A DNA stretch of 64,000 nt, taken from Closterium sp. NIES-65. Taxonomy: Eukaryota; Streptophyta; Zygnematophyceae; Desmidiales; Closteriaceae. The notes under the pieces were generated by a model. It worked only from the letters and a program-made list of their open reading frames with translations. It did not search any database and was not told the origin of the DNA. Position 1 is the stretch's first letter, and every line of letters starts with the position of its first letter. The stretch spans positions 2,480,001-2,544,000 of the forward strand of contig CANXME010002096.1 in NCBI GenBank assembly GCA_948144175.1, in the 5' to 3' direction. Positions 10,225 to 45,844 of the stretch are shown piece by piece. The translations under genes and the position numbers were made by a program.

Positions 10225-10632
10225 TGTTGCGATCAAATGTTGATCTTGCCTAGGATCACCTCGGGAAGGTTCGCACACTACTGATTTGTGGTGGTGGGCC
10301 CTTGACCTCAATAGCAGAGTGAATGTAAATGATTGAGATAATAAAAACATGCAAATACAACACTATAAGTAAGAGTATAGGAGAATGCGAAACGACCTAG
10401 CTAGCCATGTACTCTAAGGGGTACATTCCCTTATTACAGCGAATTCCAACCGTGCGACTCCGGACAGTTACAAAACTGTATGGGCAGAATCCTCGCCACT
10501 GCTGCTGCCCGATGCTGTCTGCCCGACGGTCCCGATGCTTTCGTAACCGTGTGACCCTTCGTGTCATTTCCGCCCTTTTGACTTCAGCCTCGATACTGCA
10601 TGCTACGATTGCTACGGCCACTATTTGTAACA
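10225..10632 (-). repeat. 3' LTR of B
   Basis: 408 bp, TGTTACAAATAG to CGCAACA on the minus strand. It pairs with 25112-25537 and shares the block around GTACATGGCTAGCTAGG with the LTR of D. Confidence 0.9.
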
Positions 10633-10642
10633 CCCCTCTTCA

Positions 10643-11839
10643 CTAGTGGCCATAGCAACTCTTGACTCGTTTGACTATTCTGCTGAGTTCGGAGTAGTGT
10701 TGATACTGCTGACGCAGCAGTTTCTTCGTCAGAAAGTCAGCTGCCATGTCACTCGTCGGGCAGTAGGTCAGGTCAACCTTGCCTTTGTCAACTTGGTCTT
10801 TGACAAAGAAGTACCGCACCGCGATGTGCTTGGTGCGGTTGACGAATCCCGGCTTGTTCGTGATTCTGATCGCGCTCTGGTTGTCGCAGTGAAGGCGAAA
10901 GTTTGCCGAGGCTGGAATTTTTGCCTCCAGTAGCAGGTCCTGAAGATAGAGACCTTCGCGAACAGCTGTTGTTGCTTCGATGAACTCAGCTTCCGCTGAT
11001 GACAGGGCAACCAGCTCCTGCTTCTGTGAATTCCAGAAGATGGGGCCGCTGGGTTCGAGGCGGAAAAGGAAGCCTGTCCTGGACCGTCGATTGTCGGGGT
11101 CAGTAGCATGTTTGGTGTCCACGTAGCCGATGAGGTTGAACGATGAGGTTGGGATGGTGGAGTAGCAGAGCCCGACATTAGGCGTGGAAATGAAGAATTG
11201 AAGCGCCCGCTGAAGATCAGAGAGGTTTTTGGCCGTTGGTTTGCGTGAGTATTGGGCCAGCTGACGCGCGATGTACGAGAGGTTTGGCCTGCAGGTGACA
11301 GAGGCGAAGAGAAGACATCCCAATTGCTGCTGATAAGTCTGGAGCCCAGCAGGGGACAGGGTTTTGTTGTCAGGTTTGTGGTTGGGTCCTGGAGTGCGGT
11401 AAGGGGTGGAGAGCGATGCAGGTGGTATGTTGAACCGCTTGCCAAGTTCCTCAGAGTACTTTGCTGCTGAGAGAGGAATGGCTTCCGGCGAGTAGGAGAT
11501 GTTAAGCCCGAGGAGCTGCTTCACGTCGTGGTTGCATGTAATGTCGACGCAGCCCGCGAGGTTCTTCTCGAACTACTCGAGTAGCTGGTTGCATGACCCT
11601 GTGTAGAGAAGGTCATCGACGTAGACCGTGAGTAAGATGTATTCGCCATGGAAATCGCGGCGATACATCCAAGGGTCGTGAGGCAACTGCTTGAACCCAA
11701 TTTCAAGCAGGATGTTGTGCAGGTACGGCTGCCAGAGCCTCGGCACCTGTTTAATCCCGTACAGGGATTTCCGCAGCTGACAAACCCGTAAGTCCCCTTG
11801 GGCCCGAACCCCCCCGGTTGATTGGAGTGTGCATCTCAT
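10643..11839 (-). pseudogene. Element B reverse transcriptase palm to RNase H, broken
   Basis: The minus strand reads RKSLYGIK and TVYVDDLLYTG (catalytic Asp pair) in 11839-11573. After a stop at 11573-11575 it continues with GLNISY, QLGCLLFASVTCRP, SRTGFLFRLEP, LSSAEAEFIEA, CDNQSAIRI, TKHIAVRYFF and ADFLTKKL to 10643. This is the usual copia palm, connection and RNase H order. The last 293 codons (11524-10643) are uninterrupted. The finger part is elsewhere, beyond the insertion at 11840-12445. Closest relative in the window is D at 58820-59971. Confidence 0.88.
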
Positions 11840-12445
11840 TCCAGCCGGTCAAAAGGACACTTGGGGTGGATAGGAACCCGTAGAGAGCCTGCCCCCGCCC
11901 TGGTCTACGTTTCCCCCCTGGTCACCCTAAAGCCCACGAACCACAACCAACCGAGAAGGAAGGTGCGACCCATAGAGTAAAGGGCTCTAGGGAGGGTGTG
12001 GGCCCGTGCAAGGACCCACACCCACCCTAGAGCCCACGAAGAACCACGGTCGAGAATGGAAGTGTGACCCAAATAATAGAGATTGGTCCGGTTCGAAACA
12101 TCGCGGGTGGGATGGGTCCGGTCCGAACCGCCCTGGATGGGATGGATCCGGACCGGACCACCATGGATGAGAGGGGTCCGATTCATTGTGGGCTCTAGGG
12201 TGGGGGTGGTTCATTGGACGGGGCCACACCCTCCCTTGAGCCCTTCCGGTAGATCCGGTTCCCCATCCGGTCCGGTCCATCCGGTTCCAAGTCCGGTTGA
12301 CCCGGATCCCCACCCGGTCGATCCGGCCGGTTCGGTAGATTTGGTTCCCCATCCGGTTCCCTACCCGGTTCCGACCCGGTTGATCCGGCTCCCTACCGGG
12401 TCGAACCGGTCCCTCACCCGGCTGGGGCGGTTGATCCGGGTCGAT
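11840..12445. repeat. CCGGTT-rich foldback insertion inside B reverse transcriptase
   Basis: Replaces about 45 codons that the relative D has between ILAI and LQKSLYG. The left part has a hairpin with two 24-bp arms (11982-12005 and 12012-12035) that differ at two positions, and a further perfect 17-bp arm at 12188-12204 complementary to 12021-12037. The right part (about 12240-12430) is a run of short GGTTCC, CCGGTT and CCCGGT repeats. No coding capacity and no clear TSD. I do not recognise the family. Confidence 0.65.
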
Positions 12446-12655
12446 GGCGAGGAGAATTCTGACGGAGGTGTGACGGCTCACCGGCGCAAACGTTTGATCG
12501 AAGTCGATCCAGTGCCTCTAGTCGTAGCCACGTATGACCCAGTGCGTCTTGAACCGTTCGATCGTGCCGTTAGATGCGGTCTTCACACGAAAGACCCATT
12601 TTCCGGAGAGAATCCTTGTTTCCTTGACTGTTGCACGGTCGACAAGCACTCAGGT
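12446..12655 (-). pseudogene. Element B reverse transcriptase finger fragment
   Basis: The minus strand encodes VLVDRATVKETRILSGKW, then FRVKTASNGTIERFK and TFAPVSRHTSVRILLAI with lesions in between. It matches D at 58520-58690. It is cut off by C on one side (12656) and by the CCGGTT insertion on the other. Joined across C to 20760 it reads ALESRDT, a TGA, then VLVDRA, where D has ALEARDTRILVD. Confidence 0.85.
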
Positions 12656-12660
12656 GTCGC

Positions 12661-12837
12661 TGTCAGATTATAATGCTTGTCTAGCCTGCACTGGGGTACT
12701 CTGTAGTGAGTACGACCTCTTAGGGTTTCCTATATGTATCCTCCTGCTTGCTAGTGAACCTCCTCCTTTCCTTATTTTCTCTTGCCTATCTAGCTAAACC
12801 CTAGCCATGGCTCCTCGTTCTAGCTACTCTTCTGACA
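12661..12837 (+). repeat. 5' LTR of C
   Basis: 177 bp, TGTCAGATTATAATG to TTCTGACA, followed by primer-site variant TGGAATCAGAG. Confidence 0.92.
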
Positions 12838-12889
12838 TGGAATCAGAGTTGTTACACTCTTGGCCTGTGGACCCACCTTATGCTTCTGC

Positions 12890-13330
12890 TGCTACTGTTC
12901 TGCTGGCCGTGCGCCCCGGGCGCACGCGGCGGTTTCGTCGCCCGTCGTGGCGCCCTCTCCCGTCGCCCGTCGTGGCGTCACGGGGGCCGCGTGTCCCCCC
13001 CCATCCCGTCGCCCGTCGAGGCGCTCCGAGGGCCGCGCGTCCCCCCTTCTTCGCGTTGTCCCGTCGCGGCGCCACGGGGGCCGCGCGTCCCCCACTCTCC
13101 CGTCTCCTGTCGTGGCGTCACGAGGGCTGCGCGTCCCCCCATATCCCGTCGCCCGTCGAGGCGCCCCAAGGGCCGCGCGTCCCCCCCATCTCGTCGCCCG
13201 TCATGGCGCCACGGGGGCCGCGCGTCCCCCCCATCTCGTCGCCCGTCATGGCGCCACGGGGGCCGCGCGTCCCCCCCATCCCGTCGCCCGTCGTGGCGCC
13301 CTGGGGGCCGCGCGCCGCCCCGCTTCATCT
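12890..13330. repeat. Minisatellite in the leader of C
   Basis: About eight imperfect units of roughly 46 bp containing CCCGTCGTGGCGCCACGGGG and CCGCGCGTCCCCCC. The complement resembles the array of L at 1-200, linking L to the same family. Confidence 0.85.
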
Positions 13331-13510
13331 CCCTCCCCGTGCCTCCTGCGTTAGGGTTTGGGGGTTGCGGGTATGGGGGTGGCGGTTGTGAGTTCCTCCC
13401 CTTGCTCTTCCTCCTCCCTCGTCTCCCACTGCTGCAGCTGCCGCTGAGGGGGGTGGGTGTGTGGGAGCCGAAGGAGTGGTGCTAGGGGGGTGACGTAAGA
13501 GTGGAGCTAG

Positions 13511-14529
13511 TGTTGTGCCAACACATTACAGTGGCACGGTCATCACACTCCCATTCCGCCTACAAGCCTGCTCAGCTTCTGGAATTTTGTGGGGAGATTT
13601 TTCAACATGTGTTCTTCAAACCCTCAAAGGTTCAGAGTTTTTGAAGCAGTTACCAAGGCATGACAACATTTTATGTTTCAAGACTTATGGCATCCCGGAA
13701 GTGTGTGTTACTCCTTTTTGGTAACACCCGAGTTCACCATTTCCGCTGCTGACTCGTCTACCGAGCTTTGATTGGTCTGAAATTCGGTCTGGCAGTCCTT
13801 TGCCTTACTGTGCAGGTGTTCATCAAGTTTCAGAACGATCTAACATCTGAGCATTGCATGACAGCTGCCGAAATTCACTATTCCGTAGTCATGGTGCACT
13901 GTTGGCAGCATTTCCCTTGCCACCCTTTCATTGTTGTCATGCCAGTGGTGCAGGGACAGAGAATGAGACAAGAAGTACAGGTGGTCAAGTGGGACTCTAC
14001 AACCCTCCTTTTGAGAAGTTTGGTCTTCCTGGAACCAGCTTGCAAGAGGGTGCAAGTGGGAAGACAAGCTAACTCATTGTTGGCTTGACTCACAATTGGT
14101 TGCCTTGAGTACAGCTCTGAACATCCATGTGTGGTTGGCTTTGATGACCTAGCTAGGACGTTTCCCATCCTTCTCTAGCCTTTCTCCCCTAGGAATCAAC
14201 CTTCTCTGAGTTCCTAGGATGATCCCAACCCTTTAAGAGTCCCCTAGGCAATGTTGTACTCACCTCTTCCTTGCATCAATGAGAATACACGTTTTTCAGC
14301 TGAGCTTAAGTTTTTGTTCACTTCGTAGCGCATACACCTTTGATGAAAGCAAGCAATACACCGTTGGAAAGCAGAAATCTAAGGCTAACTGCTGTCCGAG
14401 TTTCAGTCTCGTATGTTATTGGAGCTGATCGTGACGGCGTTTTGAACAGAGGCGGTGCGAAGTCGTCAGTTTCTACTAAGGCGGTTTCATGGGCATCCAC
14501 GACCCCTAAGTGGACAGAAGACTATAACA
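13511..14529 (+). repeat. 5' LTR of J
   Basis: 1019 bp, TGTTGTGCCAACACATTACA at the start and ACTATAACA at the end. The primer site begins three bases further on. Confidence 0.94.
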
Positions 14530-14568
14530 AGTGGTATCAGAGCTGTTCTACTCTGTTCGTGGGTGAAT

Positions 14569-15458
14569 ATGGAGGCTGAAGGTTCTGCTCCAGCTGGTCC
14601 TAGTGGTAGTGGTGGCGTGAGAGGCGCTGGGGAAGCGGGAAGAGGCGTTGCAGGCGGATCTGCACCAATGGCTTCCGTTTCAACATCCGCTAAGGATGAT
14701 GTGAAGGCATTCAACCTGGAGAAGTTCTCTGGGGAGGATTGGGCATCATGGAGCTTTAGGATGGAGCTCCTCTTCAACCATTATGGGCTGCTTGAAGTGA
14801 TGGATGGAGAATTGAAGAGGCCTGCGAGCGAAGGAGCGACCAAAGAATGGGATCGCCGGTCCAAGGATGGATTCTTCCTTCTTTCCCAATGCCTTTCATC
14901 CAACCAGCTGCACCACATCAAGCATCTCATCAAGGAAGTTGAGTGTGGTCCTAAGGCATGGAAGATATTGAAGGATGTCCATGCCCCTAGCAGCGAAGCT
15001 TTGGTGGTGGTGCTCGAGCGACAACTCCATGTGGTGAAGATCAACTCAGGGACCTCAATGTGAAGCTCTCTGCTGCTGGTGTGGACTACCCTAAGAAAAT
15101 CAAGTGCTACAGGGCTCTCTCCCTGCTGCCGGAGTCATGGGGGCCCTTGGTGGTCAACCTTAATGGCATGAAGGACTCGTGGTCCCTTGAGTGGATTCGG
15201 GCGCAAGTTCTTCAAGAGGAGTTTCAGAGGAAGGAGCTGACCGCCGCTGCCGGTGAAGGTGGAGGTTCAGCCTACGGCATGAAGGGCTTCAAGGGGCGTG
15301 GCAGCAAGAAAGGCAAGGCCAAGGAAGGCTCTGGAGGGGAGCAGCATTCGGGAGGGAAGCGTGGCAACAAGGGAGGCAAGCGGTGTGGCGGCAAGTGTTG
15401 GTATTGCCATGTGGAAGGGCACCCATGGCTCAAGTGCCGCAAGATACCTGACGGTTAG
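14569..15458 (+). pseudogene. Element J gag, one frameshift
   Basis: Starts at the ATG at 14569, about 25 bases after the primer site. The first part reads FNLEKFSGEDWASWSFRME and HIKHLIKEVECGPKAWKIL, typical of the copia Gag (UBN2/DUF4219-type) capsid region. Near 15030 the frame shifts from KINSGTSM-stop to EDQLRDLNVKLSAAGVDY, and continues through GPLVVNLNGMKDSWSLEW. A Gly/Lys-rich stretch leads to the zinc knuckle CWYCHVEGHPWLKC (C-X2-C-X4-H-X4-C). A TAG at 15456-15458 separates gag from pol. It may be a decayed codon, since the same frame continues directly. Confidence 0.88.
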
Positions 15459-15506
15459 AGGCCTGGTCAGTCATCAATTGAGGGCTCCAAGGGTGTTCAT
15501 GGAGCT

Positions 15507-17858
15507 ATGGGAGAAGGCATGGGCAGTGAGGAGGGCGATGGAGGTGCTGGCGGATACGGTGGCATGTTCTACCATGTAGGGGAGGCGTGCCCCGAGGACA
15601 TGGTTGTGCCGGCCAGCAAGATTGCTCTTCACCGCTCCTCCCATTGGGTCATCGACACGGGAGCCTTCATGACCATGACCAACCGAGAGGATCTACTGGA
15701 TGAAGTTAGGCCATCAAAGGCAGCCACCGTCGTTTCAGCCACCGGCCAAGTTGTACCCGTGCGTGGCGAGGGGAGAGCCATGTTCATGGGTGCGGATGGG
15801 AGGCTTGTGGGGCTGAAGCGTGCTCTCCTTGTTCCTGGATTGTGTGCCAGCCTCCTCTCTACCAAGGCCCTAAGTGAGGCAGGGATGAAGATGGAGATGT
15901 TGGGCACAAAGGTTTTCAAGGCAACTCTGGATGGGCGCGTGTTGTGGGACCTCCGAGGTGGCAAGGACATGCACTGGTCCATGTGGGAGATACCGGTGCT
16001 GCCATGGAAGGAGGCGGCTGCGCGCTTGGCTGCTGGAGGTGTGAGAGGAGGGCGTGTTAACCACGTGGACAATGGAGGAGGTGGTGATGATAGTGATGGT
16101 GGGCTCCTTGGGCATGGAGGGGCTGAGTTACCAAGTGTAACTCCTAGCACGGGTGAGACGGATTGGCTCACCGCACACCGTCACTTTGGCCACGTGGCGC
16201 TACCTCAGTTGCAGCAGCTGTTCAAGGAGGAAAGAGTCAAGAGGCTGAGGATAAAGGGGGAGCCCAAGGAGGTGGGATCTCGTGAGACTTGCTTGACCAG
16301 CAAGTTTTCACAGTTTCCCTTCCATTCGGTGGAGGGGAAGTCGAGTGACCCGGTGGAGCTCGTGCATGTGGATCTCATGGGACCCATGAAGGTGAAGGGA
16401 GATGGTGGGGCCCTGTATTCCATGACCATGATGGATGACAACACAAGGCTCACCTGGTCCTTTCCACTTGCAAAGAAAAGTGATGCTGCAAGGATCATCA
16501 TTGAAGAGTGGCTGCCCTTGGTGGAGCGAGAGAGCGGCAAGCGGGTGAAGGCGATTCGTAGCGACCGTGGTGGGGAGTTTTTGGGAGCGGAGTTCCGGAG
16601 CTGGCTGAAGCGGCACGGCATCAAGCAGCAGCTCACCACGGCCTACACTCCTCAATCCAATGGCGTGGCAGAGAGAGCAAACCGGACCATCATGAAGGGT
16701 GGGAGAACGATGTTGGTAGACTCGGGTCTACCCTTACGATTCTGGCCCCTCGCTATTCGCCATGCCACCGTCATCAAGAACCGAGTATTGACTCATGTGG
16801 GAGGGCAGCATTGGGTCCCTATGGAGAAGTGGAGAGGCAAGAAGCCCCTGGTGGATATGCTTCGAGTCTTCGGGTGCATGGGACTCGTGCACGTCCCTAA
16901 GGAGAAGCGTGACAAGCTTCAAGCGGCGGCGGTGTGGGCTGTTCATTTGGGACTTGCACAAGGGAGCAAGGGGTGGCTCATGTGGGACCCAAAAGCCAAC
17001 CCCATTTTCACCACCAGAGATGCCAAGTTCATGGAAAGGTTCATGTTCAAGGAGTGGTTGGAGCGAGGGAGGAGCAAGGTCACCATTCCGCTCGGAATAG
17101 AGGTGGGAACGAATGACCCACTCCTCATTCCCATCGAGTTGTCTTCATCTTCAGAGGTAACGGAGGTGTCACATGACTTGGGAGGTGCTGAAGGGGAGGC
17201 AGCAGAGGTGGAGGGAGTGTTGCAGCAAGAGGCGGCCCCTGTAGCTGAGAGAGGTGCTGCCGGGGAGGAGGTGCAGCAGCCTACACCATCCCCTTCACTT
17301 CCACCAAGGCGGACAACCCAGGGGAAGCATGGTGCTGTCCGCGGTGGAGCTAAGGAGGGTGCAGCCAAGGAGAGACCCAAGAGAGATGCTCACCCAAGGG
17401 ATTTCCTCAAGTATGAAAGGCTTGGGGGTCCCAAGGCATTGCTGGTCCAGGAGGAGGAAGATGATGAGGAGAAGGGAGCCGAGGGAGAGATGGAGCAGAT
17501 TTGTTGCTTCGGTGTCAACTTACCTCATGAACCGGCTTCAATGGAGGAAGCACTTGCTGGAGATGATCGAGAGGCTTGGTTGGCTTCAAGGGAGGATGAG
17601 TTTCAGAGCCTCATGGAGAATGGAACATGGACCCTCACTGATCTGCCCCCGGGAAGAAAGGCATTGGATTGCACGTGGATATTACGTGTGAAGACCGATG
17701 CGGAGGGGAAGTTGGAGAGGCGCAAAACAAGTCTTGTGATCAAGGGTTTCCAGCAGAGGGAGGGGGTTGAATTTAAGGAGGTGTTTGCTCCTGCTGTCAA
17801 GGCTCCTACGCTCCGGGTGTTGCTGGCAGCAGCTGCCGTTTGTGGTAGATCTACATGA
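15507..17858 (+). CDS. Element J pol, first part: protease and integrase to reverse transcriptase start
   Basis: Open over 783 codons, in the same frame as the end of gag. Protease has WVIDTGAFMTM (intact Asp-Thr-Gly). The pre-integrase zinc region has HRHFGH but ETCLTSK, with one Cys apparently lost. The integrase triad is complete: HVDLMGP, IRSDRGGEF and GVAERANR. The C-terminal integrase region has FGCMGLVHVPKEKR. After an acidic spacer, reverse transcriptase starts at NGTWTLTDLPPGRKALDCTW and runs to LVIKGFQQREGVEF and PTLRVLLAAAAV. The frame then ends because about 24 codons, including the first catalytic Asp of the palm, are deleted at 17847-17853. Confidence 0.92.
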   Translation: MGEGMGSEEGDGGAGGYGGMFYHVGEACPEDMVVPASKIALHRSSHWVIDTGAFMTMTNREDLLDEVRPSKAATVVSATGQVVPVRGEGRAMFMGADGRLVGLKRALLVPGLCASLLSTKALSEAGMKMEMLGTKVFKATLDGRVLWDLRGGKDMHWSMWEIPVLPWKEAAARLAAGGVRGGRVNHVDNGGGGDDSDGGLLGHGGAELPSVTPSTGETDWLTAHRHFGHVALPQLQQLFKEERVKRLRIKGEPKEVGSRETCLTSKFSQFPFHSVEGKSSDPVELVHVDLMGPMKVKGDGGALYSMTMMDDNTRLTWSFPLAKKSDAARIIIEEWLPLVERESGKRVKAIRSDRGGEFLGAEFRSWLKRHGIKQQLTTAYTPQSNGVAERANRTIMKGGRTMLVDSGLPLRFWPLAIRHATVIKNRVLTHVGGQHWVPMEKWRGKKPLVDMLRVFGCMGLVHVPKEKRDKLQAAAVWAVHLGLAQGSKGWLMWDPKANPIFTTRDAKFMERFMFKEWLERGRSKVTIPLGIEVGTNDPLLIPIELSSSSEVTEVSHDLGGAEGEAAEVEGVLQQEAAPVAERGAAGEEVQQPTPSPSLPPRRTTQGKHGAVRGGAKEGAAKERPKRDAHPRDFLKYERLGGPKALLVQEEEDDEEKGAEGEMEQICCFGVNLPHEPASMEEALAGDDREAWLASREDEFQSLMENGTWTLTDLPPGRKALDCTWILRVKTDAEGKLERRKTSLVIKGFQQREGVEFKEVFAPAVKAPTLRVLLAAAAVCGRST

Positions 17859-19084
17859 AGCAGCCAGAGGGGTACAACGATGGGAGTGGACGTGTTTGCA
17901 GGCTCAACAAGGCCATCTATGGCCTCAAACAAGCTCCAAGGTGCTGGTATGCAAGGCTGATGGAGGCGTTGGAGGCTCTTGGCTTCAAAGTCAGCGGGTG
18001 CGACGAGAGTCTCTTCATGATCGAGGGGGAGGAGGAGAAGGTGTTTCTCCTTGTCTACGTCGATGACATTCTCCTCTTCTCTCCATCCCTAGAGAGGATC
18101 AAGGAGGTGCAAGGAAAGCTGAAGGAGACCTTTCAATGCAAGGCCCTTGGACCGGTGGGGTATTACCTTGGTCTTCACGTGGAGAGGGACGAGGTGAAGG
18201 GATGGTTGAGGCTTCACCAACACAAGTACCTTGCAGCCATGGGGGAGAGGTATGGGTTGGAGGAAGGGAGGAGTGTAAAGACTCCACAACCCTCAGGATT
18301 TCAGCAACACCTTGATGAAGAGGAGGGTGAGGTGTTGGAGCCCGAGTTGCAGCGTCGGTTCCAGTCAATGGTGGGGAGCTTGATGTATGCTTCGGTCAAC
18401 ACTCGCCCCGATATTTCATTCGCGGTTTCACAGCTGGCTCGTGTGGTGTCTAGGCCCCTTCAAGAGCACCTTGATGCAGCAGAGAGGCTGGTGAGGTACT
18501 GCATGGCAACCTCAAGGGTGGGGCTGCAATATTCAGTGCATGGGCAGCTGAAGCAAAAGGGAGTGGAGGAATTGAGCACGAAGACCGGTGCACCTGCAAG
18601 GCGTGGACACTTGTACCTCTCGTGCTTCACCGATGCTACCTGGGCAAGTGACATCAGTGATGCAACATCCCATGGTGGCTATGTATGCTGTGTTGGAGGG
18701 AGTCCAGTGAGCTGGAAGTCTAAGAAGCAAGGGGAGATAGCTCACTCATCAACGGAGAGCGAGTACATGGCGTTGTTTCATGGGTTGAAGGAGGTGGTTT
18801 GGATGAGGAGGTTGCTTGAGGAGTTGGGGCAGGAGCAAGAGGGTCCTACACCTGAGTTCTGTGACAGCCAAGGAGCAATTGCAATGGCTCGCAATGCTGT
18901 GCTCCATGGGCTGAACAAGCACATGCATATCAAATGGCATTGGGTGAGGAAGGAGGTGAAGAAGGGCACGGTCTCCTTGCACTACATCAACACTACCAAG
19001 CAACCTGCAGATTTTTTTACAAAGCGGCTTGCAGAGCATCAGCATTGGACCTGCGCCACCTTGTGTGGCATGTCCTTCAACTAA
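17855..19084 (+). CDS. Element J pol, second part: reverse transcriptase palm and RNase H
   Basis: 409 codons, shifted relative to the preceding frame by the deletion. It starts in MKQPEGYNDGSGRVC and AIYGLKQAPRCW, has the catalytic LVYVDDILLF, FQSMVGSLMYASVNTRPDI, SWKSKKQGEIAHSSTESEY (RNase H), CDSQGAIAMARN and KHMHIKWHWVR, and ends PADFFTKRLAEHQHW. The terminal stop is 57 bases before the 3' LTR. The only visible defect in this half is the missing upstream palm segment. The ATG is in the middle of the original protein, not a true start. Confidence 0.92.
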   Translation: MKQPEGYNDGSGRVCRLNKAIYGLKQAPRCWYARLMEALEALGFKVSGCDESLFMIEGEEEKVFLLVYVDDILLFSPSLERIKEVQGKLKETFQCKALGPVGYYLGLHVERDEVKGWLRLHQHKYLAAMGERYGLEEGRSVKTPQPSGFQQHLDEEEGEVLEPELQRRFQSMVGSLMYASVNTRPDISFAVSQLARVVSRPLQEHLDAAERLVRYCMATSRVGLQYSVHGQLKQKGVEELSTKTGAPARRGHLYLSCFTDATWASDISDATSHGGYVCCVGGSPVSWKSKKQGEIAHSSTESEYMALFHGLKEVVWMRRLLEELGQEQEGPTPEFCDSQGAIAMARNAVLHGLNKHMHIKWHWVRKEVKKGTVSLHYINTTKQPADFFTKRLAEHQHWTCATLCGMSFN

Positions 19085-19141
19085 GGGAGGCAACTTCAGG
19101 GAGCAGCTAAGGGATGAATGAGAGCACGATGAGGGGGAGTT

Positions 19142-20160
19142 TGTTGTGCCAACACATTACAGTGGCACGGTCATCGCACTCCCATTCAACCTACAAGCCT
19201 GCTCAGCTTCTGGAATTTTGTGGGGAGATTTTTCAACATGTGTTCTTCAAACCCTCAAAGGTTCAGAGTTTTTGAAGCAGTTACCAAGGCATGACAACAT
19301 TTTATGTTTCAAGACTTATGGCATCCCGGAAGTGTGTGTTACTCCTTTTTGGTAACACCCGAGTTCACCATTTCAGCTGCTGACTCATGTACCAAGCTCT
19401 GATTGGTCTGAAATTCGGTCTGGCAGTCATTTGCCTTACTGTGCAAGTGTTCATCAATTTTCAGAACGATCAAACATCTAAGCATTGCGTGACAGCTGCC
19501 GAAATTCACTATTCCGTAGTCATGGTGCACTGTTGGCAGCATTTCCCTTGCCACCCTTTCATTGTTGTCATGCCAGTGGTGCAGGGACAGAGAATGAGAC
19601 AAGAAGTACAGGTGGTCAAGTGGGACTCTACAACCCTCCTTTTGAGAAGTGTGGTCTTCCTGGAACCAGCTTGCAAGAGGGTGCAAGTGGGAAGACAAGC
19701 TAACTCATGGTTGGCTTGACTCACAATTGGTTGCCTTGAGTACAGCTCTGAACATCCATGTGTGGTTGGCTTTGATGACCTAGCTAGGACGTTTCCCATC
19801 CTTCTCTAGCCTTTCTCTCCTAGGACTCAACCTTCTCTGAGTTCCCAGGATGATCCCAACCCTTTAAGAGTCCCCCAGGCAATGTTGTACTCACCTCTTC
19901 CTTGCATCAATGAGAATACACGTTTTTCAGCCGAGCTTAAGTTTTTGTTCACTTCGTAGCGCATACACCTTTGATGAAAGCAAGCAATACACCGTTGGAA
20001 AGCAGAAATCTAAGGCTAACTGCTGTCCGAGTTTCAGTCTCGTATGTTATTGGAGCTGATCGTGACGGCGTTTTGAACAGAGGCGGTGCGAAGTCGTCAG
20101 TTTCTACTTAGGCGGTTTCATGGGCATCCGCGACCCCTAGGTGGACTGAAGACTATAACA
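19142..20160 (+). repeat. 3' LTR of J
   Basis: 1019 bp, same length as the 5' copy, preceded by the polypurine tract GATGAGGGGGAGTT. Confidence 0.94.
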
Positions 20161-20165
20161 GCTAG

Positions 20166-20577
20166 GGGTGCGGCAAGGGGTGTGTGAGAGGGGTGTGGGA
20201 CAGTTGGGGGAGGTTGAACGGAGGCTGTCGTCGTGTCGTCAGCAGCACCAGTAGTCCGGGGCGCTGCTCCGGTAGCCCAGTAGTAGCCTGCTGCGCCTGT
20301 CGCCCGTGGGTCCGTTGCTCCAGCTGCTTAGAGTTAGCCGCAGAGCCAGTTACTCCAGTAGTCCGGGGCGCTGTCCCGGTAGCCACTGTGCCAGTTTCGC
20401 TCCTGTTGCCCGTGTGTCAGCAGCTTCAGCCGTCGCCTCCTATCTCCTCTCCCCTTACAGTCCCGCCTCCTCCTCCTCACTTGCCCTTTGTGAATGCCTC
20501 TAGCTTTGCTTGTACTTGTGAACCTGCTCTATGCCTGCTTGCTGTGCCGATTATACCCCACTTTGACTATGGGGGTG
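20166..20577 (+). other. Non-coding 3' interior of C
   Basis: Pyrimidine-rich. It matches the complement of the interiors of K (from 1840) and N (from 61520). It ends with the polypurine hairpin CCCCA-CTTTGACTA-TGGGG next to the 3' LTR. No gene. Confidence 0.8.
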
Positions 20578-20754
20578 TGTCCGATTATAATGCTTGTCTA
20601 GCCTGCAGTGGGGTACTCTGTAGTGAGTACGACCCCTTAGGGTTTCCTATATGTATCCTCCTGCTTGCTAGTGAACCTCCTCCTTTCCTTATTTTCTCTT
20701 GCCTAGCTAGCTAAACCCTAGCCATGGCTCCTCGTTCTAGCTACTCTTTTGACA
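20578..20754 (+). repeat. 3' LTR of C
   Basis: 177 bp, five differences from 12661-12837, followed by the TSD copy GTCGC. Confidence 0.92.
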
Positions 20755-20759
20755 GTCGC

Positions 20760-21288
20760 GTGACTCGAGTGCCCTGATCTCCGCGTCCATTGCCTCTCGC
20801 CACTCCTTGCTGTGGGGTCTGTTGAGGGCTTGGCGTGGGTTCTTCGGCTCAATGATGCATGGCGCCGTTGAGATGGTGGTGTGGAGTCCAAGGAGTTGCA
20901 TTTCGATGACGGTGCTGTCGTGGCGATGCTGCGAGACGACCTCCTGCACATCATCGTCGTCACTCTCTGGCTCAGGTGGCGCTGGTGTTGCTGCACTGCT
21001 TCTGCTTCTTCCTGTTGTACCTCCTGCTACGCGCGCTCCTCCTTCGAAAGAGTCGTCGTCATCGTCATCGTCGTCGTCGCGACGATCACCTCGAGTGAAT
21101 TCACCTCTGGGGTCTTGCTCCAGAATGGCCGCAACAGCTTCGTCTTCCGGCGTGGCGTAGCTGTGCCCGTCATTGGCATAGACGCGGTTCGCGTTTGTCT
21201 GCTCGTCTTTGCGGAACTGTTGAAGGAAGAGGCGCTCGTAGAAGATAACGTCGCGCGCGTTTTTTATCTTCTGGCTGAGAAGGTCCAA
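20760..21288 (-). pseudogene. Element B integrase tail and reverse transcriptase start
   Basis: The minus strand reads NARDVIFYERLFLQQF (copia integrase C-terminus), an acidic spacer with a run of nine Asp, then PRQALNRPHSKEWREAMDAE and IRALESRD, the conserved entry to reverse transcriptase. The frame is intact here and is cut by C at 20760. It resumes at 12655 on the other side of C. Confidence 0.87.
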
Positions 21289-22251
21289 GATAAGCCACGC
21301 CTTGTACTCGTGGCTGATGCCGAGGTGAATTCCCCACCGCGAGCGGCTCTTAAACTTCCCAATAGTTGATGGCGAGCGGTACTAGACCATGCATCCCCAC
21401 ACGCAGAGCATGGAGGTGTCACGCTTGGTCCCGGTCCACTTCACATGTGGAGAGAGGTTGCCGGAGATTGCAGTGGTTGACAGCAGATTGTGCACCCGCA
21501 CATCATGGTGCATTGCGTACGTCCAGTAGATCGGCAGAAGCTTCGACTGCTTCATCAGCGCACACACCTTTTTCATGAGCGTGCAATTGGTGCGCTCAGC
21601 TACGCCCTCCTGCTGCTGATGCGCGTAGGGGAGAGAAATGTGATGCTCAATCCCTTTCTGCGCGAGATAGTCCTGCAGCTCCTTGCTCCTAAACTCCGCT
21701 GCGCCGTCAGACTACCAGATTTTTAGCTTCCCCCCAGATTGTCGCTGCGCGTGCGCCAGCCACCGGCAGAAAACTTTGTATGCTCTGCTGCGCGCTTCCA
21801 CGTGTACGAACCACACAGAGCGCGTCCCAGCTTCGACGAAGGTGAGAGTGTAGAGCTTGTCGTTGATGCCGCAGTGTCCCACGTTGAGGAAGTCGCTGTA
21901 GACTTTCTCCAATTTGGCGTAGCGGTTGGTTCCGGGCTCAAGTAGGGGGAAAGGTCGGTGGCTCAGTGCAGCATCTAGGCAGACGGTGCAGGTGCACGGA
22001 TGCGTTGCATCGTTCACTTCAATGCCGTCAGGTCGCAGGAGCGCGCCAGGTGGGAACACACCAGCTTCGATGCGGTTCTTCAATGTGACGCGCGAGGGGT
22101 GACCGAGGCGCTGATGCCAGAGTGTATCGTCGGCACGCAATCCAGAGGTGCGCATGTAGCGCACGCGTGCTTCGTCGAGATCCTCATCAGGTACTGGGGC
22201 AGGTGCTGGTATCTCTTCTTCTTCTTCACCAGTGCCTGTGGTCATCATCAA
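21289..22251 (-). pseudogene. Element B gag-pre-integrase and integrase core
   Basis: The minus strand has DTLWHQRLGHPSRVTLK and CTVCLDAALSHR (His-His-Cys-Cys zinc motif), then YSDFLNVG (first catalytic Asp), SDGAAEFRSKELQDYL (second), and GVAERTNCTLMKKV (Glu). A TAG stands just before the second Asp (about 21712), and another stop lies between 21382 and 21288, so the domain is interrupted although all three triad residues survive. It shares its frame with the protease at 23149-23682. Confidence 0.85.
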
Positions 22252-22274
22252 TGCCAGAAATTCCCTGTTAAGGA

Positions 22275-23120
22275 TTACAGAAAGAGGAATATTGGTTCAC
22301 TCGGCTGAGGGGTTGGCCCGTAGATGGTGCGTCGCGGGGTTGAGGGCTCGTTCCCCCAGTCGATGGTGTCCCAAGGGCAGTCAGGTGGTGGGAGTGCAGG
22401 TGCGAGGCGTTGTGGAGGGCGACCAAGAGGAACAATTGTTGGTTCCGCTGCTTCTTCTTCCCCCCTTTGGTCCTCGCGGGAAGCCCCCCAGCCTTCGCCA
22501 GAAGTGCCCCAGCCGCTTGTTTCGGCGCCAGATGCGGCGCCCCATCCGCTAGTGGTTCCGCCAGTTGCTGCTCCACATCCACCTATGTCGCTTGTTCCCC
22601 ATCCGCCGGTGCTCCCCCACCCCCCTTGATTGGAGGCGCTCTCTTCTTCGCCCCATCCGCTCCAGGCAAATGTTTTGCGCGCTTCAGCGAGACTCTTTTG
22701 TCGAAGTTCCTCCGCTTCGCGTTGCGCCAGTTCTTCTTCCTGCGCCACAGTGAGCTTCTTCCCAGAGTTGCGCTTGTGATGATAAATCTCGAGAAATTTC
22801 TCCTCTGTGTAGGGCCGTGGGTTGCTGTGCTTGTCGAAGGTGCCGACTCCAGTGCCGCACAGCATTCCCGGAAGATGCTGTGAGGGTGGCCCGCGAAGGG
22901 GATGATCCCTTGTGCCAAAGACACCGCGTGTTGCGATTTCCAGCTCGAGGTTGGACATACCTTCCTCAGGTGGTGCTTCTCGCTTTGCTTCGAGGATGGC
23001 GGCAAGGCCACGGCCAGCAATTGCGCTTGTTGAGGATGTGGGCGTGTGGCAGTCTCTGCAGACACCATCTAGGTCAGGGTCGTGTAGCGCCAACTCGCGC
23101 GGATGTGGGTGATGCGGCAC
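22275..23120 (-). CDS. Extra open frame with Gly-Trp-Gly repeats inside element B
   Basis: An open frame of 281 codons lies between protease and pre-integrase of B, in a different frame from both. It is not a recognised copia domain. The N-terminal third has CRDCH and several short hydrophilic stretches. The middle is charged and probably helical (IYHHKRNSGKKLTVAQEEEL, then QREAEELRQKSLAEARKTF). From there to the end it has six GWG repeats (SGWGEEE, GGWGSTG, GGWGTSD, SGWGAAS, SGWGTSG, EGWGASR) and one decayed copy, GGCG. The listed start is GTG. The frame is open upstream to 23198 apart from a TAG at 23121-23123, reading LIPLRFKHIHRRDWKHPDGR. GW/WG repeats are known Argonaute-binding hooks, but that role here is inference. 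A captured host gene fragment is an alternative. Relative D has this region deleted, so it offers no comparison. Confidence 0.6.
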   Translation of the reverse strand: MPHHPHPRELALHDPDLDGVCRDCHTPTSSTSAIAGRGLAAILEAKREAPPEEGMSNLELEIATRGVFGTRDHPLRGPPSQHLPGMLCGTGVGTFDKHSNPRPYTEEKFLEIYHHKRNSGKKLTVAQEEELAQREAEELRQKSLAEARKTFAWSGWGEEESASNQGGWGSTGGWGTSDIGGCGAATGGTTSGWGAASGAETSGWGTSGEGWGASREDQRGEEEAAEPTIVPLGRPPQRLAPALPPPDCPWDTIDWGNEPSTPRRTIYGPTPQPSEPIFLFL

Positions 23121-23148
23121 CTACGGGCGTCCATCAGGGTGCTTCCAG

Positions 23149-23682
23149 TCACGGCGATGGATGTGTTTGAAGCGCAGGGGGATGAGGTCTATTAGTTCCT
23201 GCGAGAACATAGACTCCGTTTTCGGCGTGAGCCCATCCGATCTGCTTTCGCGTCTTGTCCGGCATCGTGAAGTGGAGCAAGATGTCGCGCGTCTCGGGGC
23301 CGGTGCTGAGATAAACTCCGCAATCCATGAGTTGTGCCGCCGAGAGGAGATTAAAGCGCAGGTTTTGTACGATCAACACATCATTTAGTGTGATGTGCGT
23401 TCTGCTCCCTCGGGCCTTGAGCACGACGATGCCTTGCGCACTTGCGCGCAGTCGCGTGTTGTTCGCCACAGTAACGTATGTGACGGAGGGGGTGGCGATC
23501 GCGTTGGAAATGTAACGCTCGCAACCCACCATGTGCTGTCGACAGCAGCTATCCACGTACCATGTGTTGTAGTGTCTGTTGTCGTTATGCGCGAGCAGCG
23601 CTAGTCGCGGGGTAACGATATGCGGTGTATCCACCTTTAGGAACTGTTCGCACGCGATCCAATTGATTGGTGCCGGCCGCAT
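23149..23682 (-). pseudogene. Element B protease region
   Basis: 177 open codons. WYVDSCCRQHMVGCERY is the copia aspartic protease site with Asp-Ser-Cys in place of Asp-Ser-Gly. It is followed by VLIVQNLRFNLLSAAQLMDCG and NGVYVLAG, the usual end of the protease-to-integrase region. The frame then runs into the boundary of the extra GW frame. The active-site change suggests it is inactive. Confidence 0.85.
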
Positions 23683-23689
23683 GTCAGGT

Positions 23690-25010
23690 ACGTGCGGGGG
23701 GCTTTCAAGCAGCGGGACTGGGAGGTTCCAGTCCTATTCGTCGTCGTCGCTGAAGACGTGACGCGTGCTGAACGGATTGTTGTTCGAGAATGCTCCGATT
23801 GGGTGAGGCGCAGACTCAGGTGATGGTGAGCGTGCGTGCGAACGACGCGATCCGCTTATCATGACCATGTTCCCCGTGACATTGCGGACGGGTGTAGTCT
23901 GTGATGGTTGGTGCTGCTGGTGCTGAACTGTTGGGTTCAGGTTGCGTGATGGGGGTTGATACCCCTGGGCGGGACGCGGATTGTTCCGTGCGTCTTGTCA
24001 GCAGGACCAGGTGCTCGGATTGGCCTGGCAAGGGCGAGATCGGAATTTGCATTGATCCGCCAGGTGCCCGAAGTTTCTGCAAAGCTTGCAGTAGAGGCGC
24101 CGCGGCCATCGCTCTTCTGTGTTGTAGGTGTAGAAGGCGAGGCGTTCTCTCTCTCGTCGCGACACTGGTCGCTGCTGGTCCATGTCCCGTTGTTAGACGA
24201 GGAGGGCGGCGCATAGGGCGGCCTCCAAGATGACCCCCTGCTGTCGGAGAAGCACCTTGCAGGGCCGCCACTCTGGGCCAAGCCCTTGAAGCACAACGTT
24301 CACAAAAATCTCTTCGGAAATATTGCTTCCCGGCTTCGCGATTTGATCGCGGAGGCTCCGACAGCGATTAATGTAGCTGTTGACTTTCTCCCTGGTGGCC
24401 ATTTTTGTCCCCAGTAGCTGCTGGAGCAGGCGGCTCGAAGAAACCGAGTCCTTTGGTTGGTAGACTCCGTTTAGGTGGCCCTAAGCGTTAAGGGTAGGAG
24501 CAGCTGTGGTCTTGTATGATCGAATGTTCAGCTGTTCCGCCGGCGACATGTTGCGCAGCAAGACGCCGTACGCCATCAGGGACTCGTTGTAGTATTTTGC
24601 CTTGGCGTCGTTGGTGTCTTCAGTAGGTCTCGAGTAGCTCCCGTCAAAATAATGGAAAATCTGCGCGTTTTGCAGCAACAGCTCCAGCTCGAAGCTCCAA
24701 GTATAGAAGTCTCTGCCGTCAAAGCACACACTTGTCTTTATTTTTTATATGCTCAAAAACCTTGATTGCGCAGAGAGAATTGCTTCTTCACTAGGACGGG
24801 GAGTCTTGGGAGAAAGTATGCGGGGGCGGAATTCTGGCCATTCGAGGCTGGTTGACAGGGTTGGGAGGATGTTCCCGAATCGCCATTTTGCAATGTTTGA
24901 AGTCCTTGCTCCAGGCTTGTGAGTCGCTGAAGCAGTTGTGCGAGGATGGCGGAAGGAATCGTCGCCGTTTCCTCGCTTATCGCAGCCGGGTTGGGCTGCG
25001 CTTCAGCCAT
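23690..25010 (-). pseudogene. Element B gag, broken
   Basis: On the minus strand, MAEAQPNPAAISEET starts at 25010, about 90 bases after the primer site. FDGRDFYTWSFELELLLQNA starts near 24729, YNESLMAYGVLLRNM follows, and a stop lies at 24481-24483. SSRLLQQLLGTKMA and INRCRSLRDQIAK continue in 24480-24193. The zinc knuckle CKLCRNFGHLADQC (C-X2-C-X4-H-X4-C) is near 24050-24100. At least four stops or frame changes separate these parts. D at 44112-45676 shows the same order in better condition. Confidence 0.85.
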
Positions 25011-25111
25011 CAGATTCGTCTCACACGCGAGCGTGTGCCAGACGCCACTTTTTGTTCACCGAAAGTTTCGGAGGTGGCAGTGCGAAGGATTCCCGAGTCG
25101 CTCTCATACAA

Positions 25112-25537
25112 TCTTGCGATCAAAAGTTGATCTTGCCTAGGATCACCTCAGAAAGGTTCGCACACTACTGATTTGTGGTAGTGGGCCCTTGACCTCAATA
25201 GCAGAGTGAATGTATATGCTGAAATAATAAAAACATGCAAATACGGCGCTATAAGTAAGAGTACAGGAGAATGTGAAACGACCTAGCTAGCCATGTACTC
25301 TAAGGGGTACATTCCCTTATTACAGCGAATTCCAACCGTGCAACTCCGGACAGTTACGAAACTGTACGGGCAGAATCCTCGCCACTGCTGCTGTCTGCCC
25401 GACGGTCCAGATGCTTTCTTAACCGTGTGACCCTTCGTGTCATTTCCGCCCTTTTGACTTCAGCCTCGGTACTGCATGCTACGATTACTACGGTGAGGAG
25501 TGCACCGTAGTTCATTTATTTTCCACTATTCGTAAAA
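25112..25537 (-). repeat. 5' LTR of B
   Basis: 426 bp. On the minus strand it begins TTTTACGAATAG (the other copy has TGTTACAAATAG) and ends CGCAAGA before TTGTATGAGAGCG. The TSD copy GTTAT follows at 25538-25542. Confidence 0.9.
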
Positions 25538-25542
25538 GTTAT

Positions 25543-26304
25543 CACGAATGGTCATTCTTCTATCGCATCGCAAACAATCACACAATTTAGCGAATATATC
25601 ACATGTGATCATAGTGTCAGAGGTCCACTGGTGATCCCCGATTGATCCTAGAGAAGGGTTACAGGCAGGCCTCTCGATATCAGGGTAAAACACCCTTATG
25701 GCCCTTACTATAAGGGTGGGTTTAGGTGATCACCCTTGTTTTTAAAACTTGTTTTCTGAGGCACCCTTAGCTGAAAAAGTGTTCATTTTGTTAACACTGA
25801 TTTTTAAGACAGGCCTGGTGTACTCGCCCTGATGACAAAGACTAGTGTCGCGTACCACCCTGATGCGATTTCACGCGGCGGGGGGGGGGGGGGGGGGGGG
25901 GGGGGTTACTGACGAGATTTGGGCCGTGATTAGCGGCGTTTTGCTTGAGTCAGCAGATGTGCGCGTCGTCTTGACGGCTCGCGTCGCCACTGCCACAGGC
26001 TCGTCAATTGTACCTGGCTCACCTGCAATCTTCCTAGCTGGCAATGCTGCGCAGCGCCACACACACCTGCTTTGTGCAGGAGGTGTGTCCAGCATGGAAG
26101 CTTCTTCTTCCCTCCCCAGCAGGCCCCCACCCACCAACCAGTCTCTCCCACGCACCCAACCCAGTCCTCCTTGTCTCATTTCTCAATTCTGCCTCCTCGC
26201 TATCTCGTCTGGTCTAGGGTTTGCTTTGCACACCACCCCACCACCACGCTCTCCCAACAGCTAGCGTAGGCCCAGCTCTTGCAACCACCCCTTTGGCCCT
26301 CGCC
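25543..26304. other. Unassigned stretch with S fragment, hairpin and G run
   Basis: Contains a fragment of the S element (25615-25670), a hairpin CACCCTTAT with its complement across ten bases (25691-25718), and a 26-G run at 25880-25905. It may include the left end of the hAT element, but I could not find a terminal inverted repeat pair. Confidence 0.5.
25615..25670 (+). repeat. Fragment of an S-type LTR
   Basis: TGTCAGAGGTCCACTGGTGA and the following 36 bases match the first part of the 138-bp repeat of S1 and S2 on the plus strand. Confidence 0.8.
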
Positions 26305-28799
26305 ATGGCTGCTGGCGAAACCACCGATGGTGACGACGAGGCATGCCGTGAACTCCAAAAATCACCCCCGCGAACGGGCCTTAGCTTTCTACGAACCCCC
26401 GCTAAGAAGCTGTCAGATCCGGAGCCCGTAGTTGCTTCAACCGAGGACGGAACCCGCGCAGATGATTCAGGGCCTGACCTGCGCTCACCTGAAGTTTGCA
26501 CTACCACGGCGAAACCCTCACCTCCAGAAGCGACCGCTCCTGAAACGGAGATAGGCGATGCGGCTGGCGACTCTGCGAACAAGAAGCGCAAAGAGTCAAG
26601 CGGTGGCAGTGCTACGCAGTGGTGGCGATAACCAAAGCCCTCTGTGAAGCGGGCGGCACGTCCAATCCGATGAGTGGAGGACGAGGGAAGTGATGACGAG
26701 GAGGAAGAAGACGGCCTGCCAACTGTCGAAGAGATGGCCCGTTACCCCGAGGTCGCTTTCGCTAAAGCGCATAAGCGGTTTAAGACTTCATGGGAGTCTT
26801 TGTTTCCGTGGCCAATTCTAACTCGTGATGACGTTGGCTTCCCCATTTTGAGATGCAGCATGTGCTTGGAACATGGAGCTGAAGGCGCGAAAACGGCGTA
26901 TGGCAAGGGAGGCAGTGGAGGGCGTGACATGCAGAAGGGGAGCATCCGGACGCACCAACGCTCCACCGCACACCAGGACGCACACGCCGAGATGAAGTCG
27001 AAGGAGAGCCGGAAGCTTCGTCAAACGCTGCTGAGCGAGTTCGAGGGGTTGGATCGCAGCACTCTTCACATCATCACTGCTCTCAAGACTACCGTGTACA
27101 TCTGCAAGTCGGAGGCGCCAATCACCTCCTACGTGGGCACCATCAAGTTCATGGCCGAGCTCGAAGTCCCAAACCTTCCCTTGGATTCCAAAGGAAACTA
27201 CTTTTCGGAGTAAGTTTCGGGGTACTTGGTGTCGTTGTACTAGTTCCGTTACAACTGTCTTGATTGATCACGTGCTAACCTCTGTGCTTGTATCATACAG
27301 GTACGGTTTTGGGGAGCTGCTAGAAGTTGCAGCGAAGTACATGCGGCAAGAGCAACTGAAGCAGATCGAGGCGAGCCCGTACATCTCCATTCAGCTCGAT
27401 GAGAGTACTAACAAGGCGCGCGGCAAGAACATGATTGTCTACGTCCACTTCATGAAGGAGGGAGCGAGCGTCTGCGAGTTCCTCACGCTGCTGATAGTTG
27501 ACAAGTGTGACGCGGCAAGTCTAGTCGACGTGCTACTGACCCACCTTGACGCCATGGGCATTGACTTGTCCAAGATTGTTGGAATCAGCACCGACGGCGC
27601 CAGAGTAATGACGGGCACCAACAATGGTGTTGTGGCACGACTCCGGCAGCGGAATCTCTATCTCCTGTCGTGCCACTACATCGCACATCGGTAAGTCCGT
27701 CATTGTTACTGGCTTTATGGCAGGTGTGTGTTGATCATGTACTGCCCACTCACTTCAATCGCTCGTTTTCTCCGTTCTACCTTGAGCAGGGAGGCGTTGG
27801 CCGTGAAGGATGCCGCTGAGAAGGTGACGGAGTTCAACAATATAGACCAGGCGGTGCGCAACATGGCGGAGCAGCTTTCTAGGTCGAGCAACTGGCACCT
27901 GCGATTCGAGCACCTTCAGGAGTACATCTGCGAAACCAACCAGTACACCTGCTCTGCGCGTTCCTGAAGAAACACGGCAACCCCCAGCACCGCAAAGTCA
28001 CCATCCAAGGCGTGGACCAGAACGGCGAAGCTGCAGAGCACGAGTTCGTGCTTCACGAGCGCAAGATCCCAGGCCATAAGACTGGCGGGGACTACTATTC
28101 CTGCAAGGTGGTGTGCTAGGAGTTTGCGAGGGTCTGCGTTGCGCGACTGGAGTTCCGCCTAGAAGACCTCAAGAACCTGGCCGGCTCCAAGCTTTTCCGG
28201 CCATCGTGCTATCCCGACGACAACGCGCAGTGGATGAAGAAGTGCCGCGAGTGGTTGGGCATGCTAGACCACATGTTTCACCACCGCCTCTTTGGTACGC
28301 CACCTGGTTGTGCCTGCAATGTGCTGTCTGCTGTGTGTGTGTGTGTGTGTACCTTGGTGTGCTGTTAAACACCTCCTATACGCCCTGATCGCCCCTCTCA
28401 CTGCTCTTCTCTCCCATCCTGGCAGGTGTATGCTTCAAGGCGTGCGAGAGGGAGCTACCGTTGTTTCTCCACACCATGGATACCAACCACGGGAACATGA
28501 GCTTCCACAAGTCGCTCTCGCTCATGCTCCAGTCAACTGACTACGTGGGAGCGTACCCGAACCTTGTGCAGCTGTGGCAGGCCGTAGTTGTGCTCCCCCT
28601 CAGCACGGTGGAGTGCGAGCGGGGCTTAAGTCGCCAGAACCGTATCAAGACGTGGAAGCGGACCTGCCTGGGCGACGCCAAACTGGGCGATCTGATGACT
28701 GCAGCGCTCCTGCCCAGTGATGGTCTGAACTGGGTGAATGTGGTAGCCGTGTTCAATGCTAGCAAGAAGCGCCGTCCTGCCCGGGAGTTTTTGTATTGA
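26305..28799 (+). pseudogene. hAT-family transposase gene with three introns, broken
   Basis: I infer four exons: 26305-27209, 27301-27692, 27790-28294 and 28426-28799. Introns of 91, 97 and 131 bp all have GT-AG ends, and the frame is kept across each (SEYGFGELL, HREALAV, FGVCFK). Exon 1 has an acidic start, then a TTF-type zinc-finger region (FPILRCSMC to IRTHQRSTAHQ). Exon 2 has IQLDESTNKARG and ISTDGARVMTG, the hAT catalytic-core style. Exon 4 has the hAT dimerisation signature LPLSTVECERGLSRQNRIKT and ends REFLY. Lesions are TAA at 26629, TGA at 26671, a one-base loss near 27950, and TAG at 28117-28119. It cannot be translated whole. It could be a decayed transposon or a dead domesticated gene. 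Confidence 0.85.
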
Positions 28800-36774: not shown

Positions 36775-37640
36775 TGTTGAGTGATGCTACCATTCGCATT
36801 CACGTCTGTCTGCCTCCCATCATATGTTCGTGCGTTGCATGCGTGTTGTGAGTGTGTGCAAGAATTTGTGTCTTGTGCGGTTTGGTTTTTCTGAGTGTGT
36901 GTGTGTGTGTGTGAATGTTATTTGGCTTGAGCAGATATCTGAAGTGACTCCTCTGCTTAAGAGCTTTCCGACGAACCAAGTATCGCTTCAATCGGAGCAC
37001 GAACAAGAAAGTTACGAACGTTGGAGTTCGTATGCTTTTGCTATTTGGTTGTGGTGACTATGGGAAGTTGTGGGGCTGACTCAATATGGGGTACAGACTT
37101 TTGGGGGTTGGGAAATTCGTCTTTTCTACTGTAGTTGCTGCCAAATGGTTGGGAGAAACCAAACCAGGTTGGCAAGTGTGGCCAAGTTGGGTTGAGGTGG
37201 ATTGTGAAGGTTGGGATAGTGACAAAGGTCAAAGTTGGGTTGCCTATGGGGAAGGGAATTGTATGGCATGAGGTTTCCTTGGTTGGGGACTCTCTTGGGA
37301 CCTTCCCTCTCGTCCTCCTCATTCCTTCCACCTGGTTTAGTGCTTCTCCAATTCTCTTGTGTGAACTTTGTGATTGAGTTAAGTTCTTATGGCAGCATAC
37401 CCCCCTGTGCGCCGAAATTGATAAGTCGAGATTTACTTCACCTCTTGATATGTTACAACTTGGGAATTATAGCCACGGAATAGGGCTACACCATATATGA
37501 GTTTAGTGAAGTTTTGAGTGTGCACGTTGTGTCGACGGCGTTTCTTGTGAGCGCAACTATTCTGTCCAGAAATAGGGACCAACGATTTTGAGAAATTTAG
37601 GCACCTAATCTTCATAGACTCCGTCCTTAGTCTCTTATAA
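36775..37640 (+). repeat. 5' LTR of E
   Basis: About 866 bp, starting TGTTGAGTGATGC, with a GT dinucleotide run near 36896. It ends about two bases before the primer site. Confidence 0.92.
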
Positions 37641-45809: not shown

Positions 45810-45844
45810 CTGGCTGTCAAAACATTATAGCTTATGCTTTTGTG

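Follow-up and report, generated by a model that had tools for sequence, protein, structure and literature searches.

The GW-repeat frame inside element B, a Ty1/copia-type retrotransposon in the 64-kb window (the whole stretch of Closterium DNA that was analysed), is a selected, lineage-wide domain of copia Pol that is broken in the window copy, and from its repeats we infer a role in binding host Argonaute (AGO). The insert is a Pol domain of 310–330 amino acids between protease and integrase and not an extra gene. GW hooks were previously known in host silencing proteins and some plant viruses, and a conserved, selected GW platform in the Pol of three algal copia families would constitute a direct contact point between retroelements and RNAi. 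The host, Closterium, is an algal relative of land plants, and the finding would open to testing the question of how siRNA silencing is dealt with by LTR elements.

The GW-repeat insert in element B

Element B was assigned to ~10.2–25.5 kb of the window because the LTRs at both ends match (92.3% over 391 nt between 25114–25493 and 10227–10617, blastn), and it thus has the flanking LTRs of a Ty1/copia element (Table 1). Nested material splits it at ~12.6–20.7 kb; part of this material is an element whose repeats, at 13511 and 19142, are 97% alike. Pfam domains recognized in the window copy were Pol_BBD, pre-integrase (below cut-off), and SH3, and the region at the 3' end had no Pfam match on its own. 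Sister copies displayed the Ty1/copia order Gag–PR–IN–RT, with Gag, Pol_BBD, pre-integrase, SH3, and RVT_2. The protease ORF 23149–23733 (-) and the related proteins P0033, P0050, and P0072 contain the motif DSCC(G/R)QHMVG; the copia protease motif is usually D-S/T-G, compared with D-S-C in these sequences.

Table 1 Features of element B and its insert in the window.
Feature	Position	Strand	Remarks
Element B, Ty1/copia-type LTR retrotransposon	10227..25493	-	LTR pair, domains in pol order
5' LTR, matched part	25114..25493	-	blastn; ends approximate
Protease region, Pol_BBD (PF22936)	23317..23562	-	residues 58–139 of ORF 23149–23733; hmmscan E 2.4e-15
Pol insert domain, 309 codons and closing stop	22275..23204	-	one in-frame TAG in window copy
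N-terminal conserved part of insert, His/Cys-rich	22965..23204	-	HPDGRP..HPHPRE..LH..PDG.C..CHTPT
TAG stop inside insert frame, window copy	23121..23123	-	
GW block	22473..22673	-	six GWG, one GGCG, one further Trp (FAWSG)
C-terminal Pro-rich part of insert	22275..22472	-	two further Trp
GAG-pre-integrase (PF13976), positions 25–47	22057..22125	-	hmmscan E 2.1e-4, 21.5 bits, below curated cut-off of 28.4
Retroviral SH3-like domain of integrase region (PF25597)	21226..21360	-	hmmscan E 5e-9
3' part of RT / RNase H	10643..11572	-	83–86% to 3' end of L031, L032, L036
3' LTR, matched part	10227..10617	-	blastn; ends approximate

An earlier note on this DNA had described 281 open codons in a frame different from that of the flanking pol domains, with six GWG repeats and one GGCG copy, extending upstream through a single TAG. 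The open frame was indeed present at 22275–23120 (-), with the GWG Trp codons at 22653–22655, 22617–22619, 22599–22601, 22542–22544, 22509–22511, and 22488–22490 and GGCG at 22572–22583, and beyond the TAG it reached 23204. The flanking pol ORFs (protease/Pol_BBD, 23149–23733; pre-integrase, 21712–22296) are in frames other than that of the insert, and the pre-integrase match adjoins the insert C-terminally in a shifted frame. The CAG near 23198, which the note took for a possible splice acceptor relic, turned out to encode the Gln of S-Q-E-L-I-D-L, a motif that relatives have as well. The best 70 residues of the window insert contain 12 GW/WG, whereas the next best contains four, as judged from all 157 open stretches in the window that are ≥120 amino acids long. 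The 308-residue window segment has 13 GW/WG compared with a shuffled mean of 2.5, and none of 5000 shuffles reached 13.

The N-terminal part looks zinc-binding-like by eye, with His/Cys columns that are invariant or nearly so in the alignments, and AlphaFold gave no confident fold for this part or for the insert as a whole. The charged stretch was modelled as a helix in low-confidence structure models; the GW block was predicted without secondary structure at a pLDDT of ~32–39, within a whole model that was poor (mean 40.6). No Pfam match was obtained with the window frame, only weak single-member matches were obtained with the insert alignment, and sequence matches to the PDB were limited to E values of 1.7 and 3.9.

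The insert is read in the Pol frame

Searching the 874-Mb assembly of the same genome (2400 contigs) with the insert returned at least 139 matches, with 138 of 62,902 candidates scored, and the best 30 matches minus three duplicates gave 27 distinct copies for frame comparison. A protease match was present in 24 distinct copies, and in 21 of them the insert continued the protease frame; it did not do so in the window copy, its 97% identical sister L002, and L003. Likewise, insert and pre-integrase shared one frame in 21 of the 25 distinct copies with a pre-integrase match, except in the window copy, L002, L005, and L007; L011 and L006 were scored by the junction-adjacent piece, which was ambiguous in L006. 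Of the 27 distinct copies, just the window copy and L002 had the insert out of frame with both neighbours, and the spacing between the protease, insert, and pre-integrase pieces varied little. All three pieces were in one frame in each of six further copies examined by tblastn, of which five were picked for long open frames and L035 for its divergence; in L035 there is a stop inside this frame. The open frame of L034 also contains Gag (Retrotran_gag_2), and in L031 the insert is followed downstream by SH3 and RVT_2. From the end of Pol_BBD to the pre-integrase match there are ~420–430 residues in L031 and L033, compared with ~97 from the end of Pol_BBD to HRHFGH in element C of the window, and therefore the insert represents an insertion of ~330 residues in Pol. 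Element C has no GW/WG between the end of Pol_BBD and rve.

Most other copies share one frame, and the shifted frame of the window copy is decay. This copy has lost a short piece where protease and insert meet, contains the TAG, and changes frame between insert and pre-integrase, so that the domain looks like a separate frame. L002 has the frame differences of the window copy at both junctions and is either allelic or a duplicate of the defective copy. Identical or near-identical locus pairs (L009/L010, L017/L018, L023/L024, and L041/L042) lay either on separate contigs or both on the same contig, which suggests that the assembly contains duplicate haplotigs or large duplications.

The insert is under purifying selection

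Comparison of synonymous and nonsynonymous changes across copies, as the earlier note had proposed, showed that the insert is under purifying selection like the neighbouring Pol domains, with no neutral decay. Among the 27 distinct copies, the whole insert had a median pairwise dN/dS of 0.179. Its N-terminal part gave 0.123, its C-terminal part 0.227, and the GW block, where conservation is lowest, 0.356; the neighbours gave 0.188 (protease, 24 copies) and 0.168 (pre-integrase/integrase, 25 copies). These ratios are rough because the copies are a non-random sample of those nearest to the window copy and synonymous divergence is high (median dS ~0.7–1.2). In the two other frames, pN/pS was 0.98–1.83 with 3–138 stops per region.

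Two of the six further copies (L031:3630-4625 and L034:3630-4625, both +) also have 332 open codons in the +1 frame across the whole insert, which might speak for a chance open frame over GC-rich repeats. This reading is refuted by purifying selection, which was detected in the GW frame only, and no tandem array was found; absence of such an array at 22000–23600 also led us to reject a minisatellite origin. An overlapping gene in the +1 frame was rejected as well, although it is the frame adopted in some public gene models of relatives: its pN/pS was 1.22–1.30, and each sub-region contained stops.

Tryptophans of the GW block in the family of element B

The block was present in all 33 copies examined (27 distinct and six further copies), each with 5–8 Trp and 7–14 GW/WG, so that neither a copy lacking the insert nor loss of the Trp repeats, outcomes that would have spoken against the earlier note, was encountered. 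Seven Trp per block were counted in 20 of the 33 copies. Block length and spacers varied among these copies, with Trp spacings of 3–19 (median 8). Mean pairwise identity, computed without stops and gaps, was 0.845 for the seven Trp columns compared with 0.650 for the other 52 columns; this excess is modest because 300 of 10,000 label permutations matched it. Four Trp columns are near-invariant, with 30–32 Trp each, and the column occupied by GGCG in the window copy is Trp in 27 of 32 copies.

The domain is shared by three Closterium copia families

Profile searches of a protein database returned 71 and 27 matches at E values up to 10 (~8000 candidates scored in each), all of them from Closterium, a zygnematophyte. 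The closest proteins among the matches listed came from Closterium NIES-53, NIES-54, Yama58-4, and Naga37s-1, and the best Closterium database protein reached 93% against the 36 loci of family 1, the family of element B; the host is thus probably related to these strains without being one of them. These searches added two more divergent copia groups. Family 2 comprises P0066, P0074, and others, P0066 being 34% identical to P0004 over 98%, and gave at least 213 matches in the same genome, many copies being counted twice (106 of 19,151 candidates scored). Its insert contained 5–8 GW/WG in all 12 loci examined and was in frame with pre-integrase in 11 of them. Family 3 (P0083, 48% identical to P0066 over 25%) gave at least 103 matches, with 97 of 20,946 candidates scored; the matches were split, and some extended into other families. 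Its insert and pre-integrase frames agreed at the junction in eight of the ten distinct loci with a pre-integrase match. The family 3 GW block has a pN/pS of 0.80 and scrambled spacers: 9 of 11 distinct loci retain two or three Trp of the GW/WG type, L040 and L051 having one each, and the three Trp columns of the query were kept in 8 of 9, 5 of 9, and 7 of 10 loci. Among nine inserts tested, the observed GW/WG number was reached by 0 of 5000 shuffles in seven, by 1 in P0083, and by 29 in P0074. GW motifs thus tend to be kept while the surrounding sequence changes across the families. A likeness of the RPYTKEKFLEIY stretch to an eIF4E-binding motif was considered and dropped, its form not being kept in family 2 and searches giving no support.

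The N-terminal residues H74, H86, H93, and C104 are conserved at ≥90% over 50 proteins from all three groups, and therefore the domain probably predates the divergence of the three copia families. The earlier note suggested that the element may have acquired a protein that binds Argonaute and blunts silencing, or else a host exon. The open frame of the window copy, which differs from the flanking frames, had pointed that way. However, most other copies read the insert in the Pol frame, and for this reason a separate ORF or captured exon is rejected; the insert is moreover shared by two further divergent families. No host source gene was found among the matches listed in the database searches, which were limited by candidate length, shared words, and number, and no relatives outside Closterium appeared among the matches listed in the two profile searches. 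Capture of a host gene or exon by element B is accordingly very unlikely and is refuted for the window copy itself, although an ancient capture before the families split is possible.

The GW block as a putative Argonaute-hook-like platform

AGO hooks are described as disordered, variable repeats with conserved Trp, and the scoring used there requires a Wsearch motif score of ≥6 for ≥3 motifs (available text of PMC10991848). The window copy, with six GWG, exceeds three Trp in GW/WG context, and variable repeats with conserved Trp were observed in families 1 and 2 and partly in family 3. We propose, with a probability of about 0.5, that the GW block is a Pol-embedded Argonaute-hook-like platform that would bind host AGO, perhaps as a silencing decoy. 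AGO binding itself, the part of the earlier note's reading that fits best, judged from sequence, is likely at roughly even odds; it is the best guess because Trp in GW context are kept, spacers are free, no structure is modelled, and the host has AGO. The domain would be made with Pol and would lie at the integrase N-terminus if it is not cut off. The GW block would then bind host AGO in competition with host hook proteins such as SPT6L, and AGO–siRNA complexes would be drawn away from the element's own RNA.

The host has Piwi-domain genes, to which 22 exons spread over six contigs were matched; some of these exons are likely duplicates. One AGO exon matched argonaute 10 (7sva) best (E 4.4e-17), and in an alignment to human AGO2 it has identical residues at L650, F653, Y654, and K660, which we take to line the Trp pockets. 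The exon also has Trp at the position of AGO10 W732, a residue that in plant AGO10 fills one of three Trp pockets (PMC12477606, as far as its text was available). A host SPT6-type gene (L068:2-790, +) was found with an SH2 exon and an in-frame Gly-rich C-terminus containing 11 GW/WG. This tail, possibly a host AGO hook, is weak evidence: its Gly content is extreme, and 11 GW/WG are likewise encoded in an overlapping frame of this G-rich DNA. It is in line with the placement of SPT6L hooks at the base of streptophytes (PMC10991848).

Several observations count against an AGO hook: within the insert, conservation is lowest in the GW block, the Trp excess in family 1 is modest, family 3 keeps its Trp only in part, the excess over shuffles is weaker in P0074, the host AGO exon has the pocket-filling Trp, and the structure models are of low confidence. 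The main alternative is a selected but generic disordered linker, whose Trp and Gly would act as stickers in particle assembly, in condensation, or towards a partner other than Argonaute. Low complexity, the highest dN/dS of the insert, a varying repeat number, and the partial retention of Trp in family 3 are consistent with such a linker, and hook regions may also attract other proteins or form condensates (PMC10991848, in part). On the other hand, three divergent families all have GW-type Trp despite their changing spacers, and GW/WG exceed shuffles in all nine inserts tested, most weakly in P0074. We consider the linker possible but doubtful.

Decoy and integrase tethering are two outcomes of AGO binding, and the present data favour neither. 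If the GW block stays on the integrase N-terminus, the pre-integration complex may be tethered through it to AGO itself or to silent chromatin that AGO occupies. The domain immediately precedes pre-integrase in the same frame and element B itself contains nested material, but nesting is common in TE-rich genomes and protease cleavage could free the domain, and we regard tethering as unlikely, even though tethering of Ty1 integrase to Pol III is established (PMC10050235, in the text available). Less likely again is a combination in which the hook-bearing integrase would be carried by AGO to TE-rich chromatin that produces siRNA, its hooks at the same time titrating AGO away from element RNA, by which a silencing AGO would be turned into the element's guide or chaperone.

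Comparison with known GW proteins and element-encoded factors

The VANC proteins of VANDAL transposons are not known as GW proteins or as products of a retroelement. Like the role proposed for the insert, VANC is a TE-encoded anti-silencing protein, but unlike the insert it binds non-coding regions of its own TE copies (PMC10398659, text available in part). The plant AGO-hook platforms NRPE1, SPT5L, SPT6L, NERD, and SDE3 resemble the insert in having variable GW/WG repeats, conserved Trp, and regions held to be disordered (PMC10991848), and Trp spacings are mostly 6–14 in the insert and 5–14 in the host SPT6-type tail. These platforms are host silencing or transcription proteins, whereas the GW block, with its putative AGO binding, lies inside a retrotransposon polyprotein. 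The viral suppressors P1 of SPMMV (PMC2904775) and P1 of WSMV (PMC6563293) provide parasite-encoded GW/WG, as does the insert. According to the available part of the SPMMV study, changing two or three of the three Trp of P1 abolishes AGO1 binding and suppression, and the insert could draw AGO from element RNA in the way that P1 protects SPMMV (PMC2904775). The viral P1 are RNA-virus proteins with few motifs, three in SPMMV P1, to which the insert has no shown sequence relation.

Additional ORFs of plant LTR retrotransposons provide extra coding capacity in LTR elements, as here; the reviewed ORFs sit between pol and the 3' LTR, whereas the insert is in frame between protease and integrase, and the word Argonaute is absent from the available sections of that review (PMC7264820). 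No earlier report of a GW platform inside retrotransposon Pol appeared among the best matches listed from open-licence full texts. One paper containing both "AGO hook" and "retrotransposon" (PMC3520747) concerns, in its available part, host NERD and not a TE protein.

Other repeats in the window

A run of ~26 G at 25880–25905 lies directly outside element B. Three LTR-like copies were found in the window, at 36775–37619, 42372–43226, and 45836–46701, the last of which adjoins a truncated copia copy (44390–45830) that by eye is P0069/P0072-like. Open frames at 26674–28799 (+) resemble, again by eye, the C-terminus of a hAT-type transposase.
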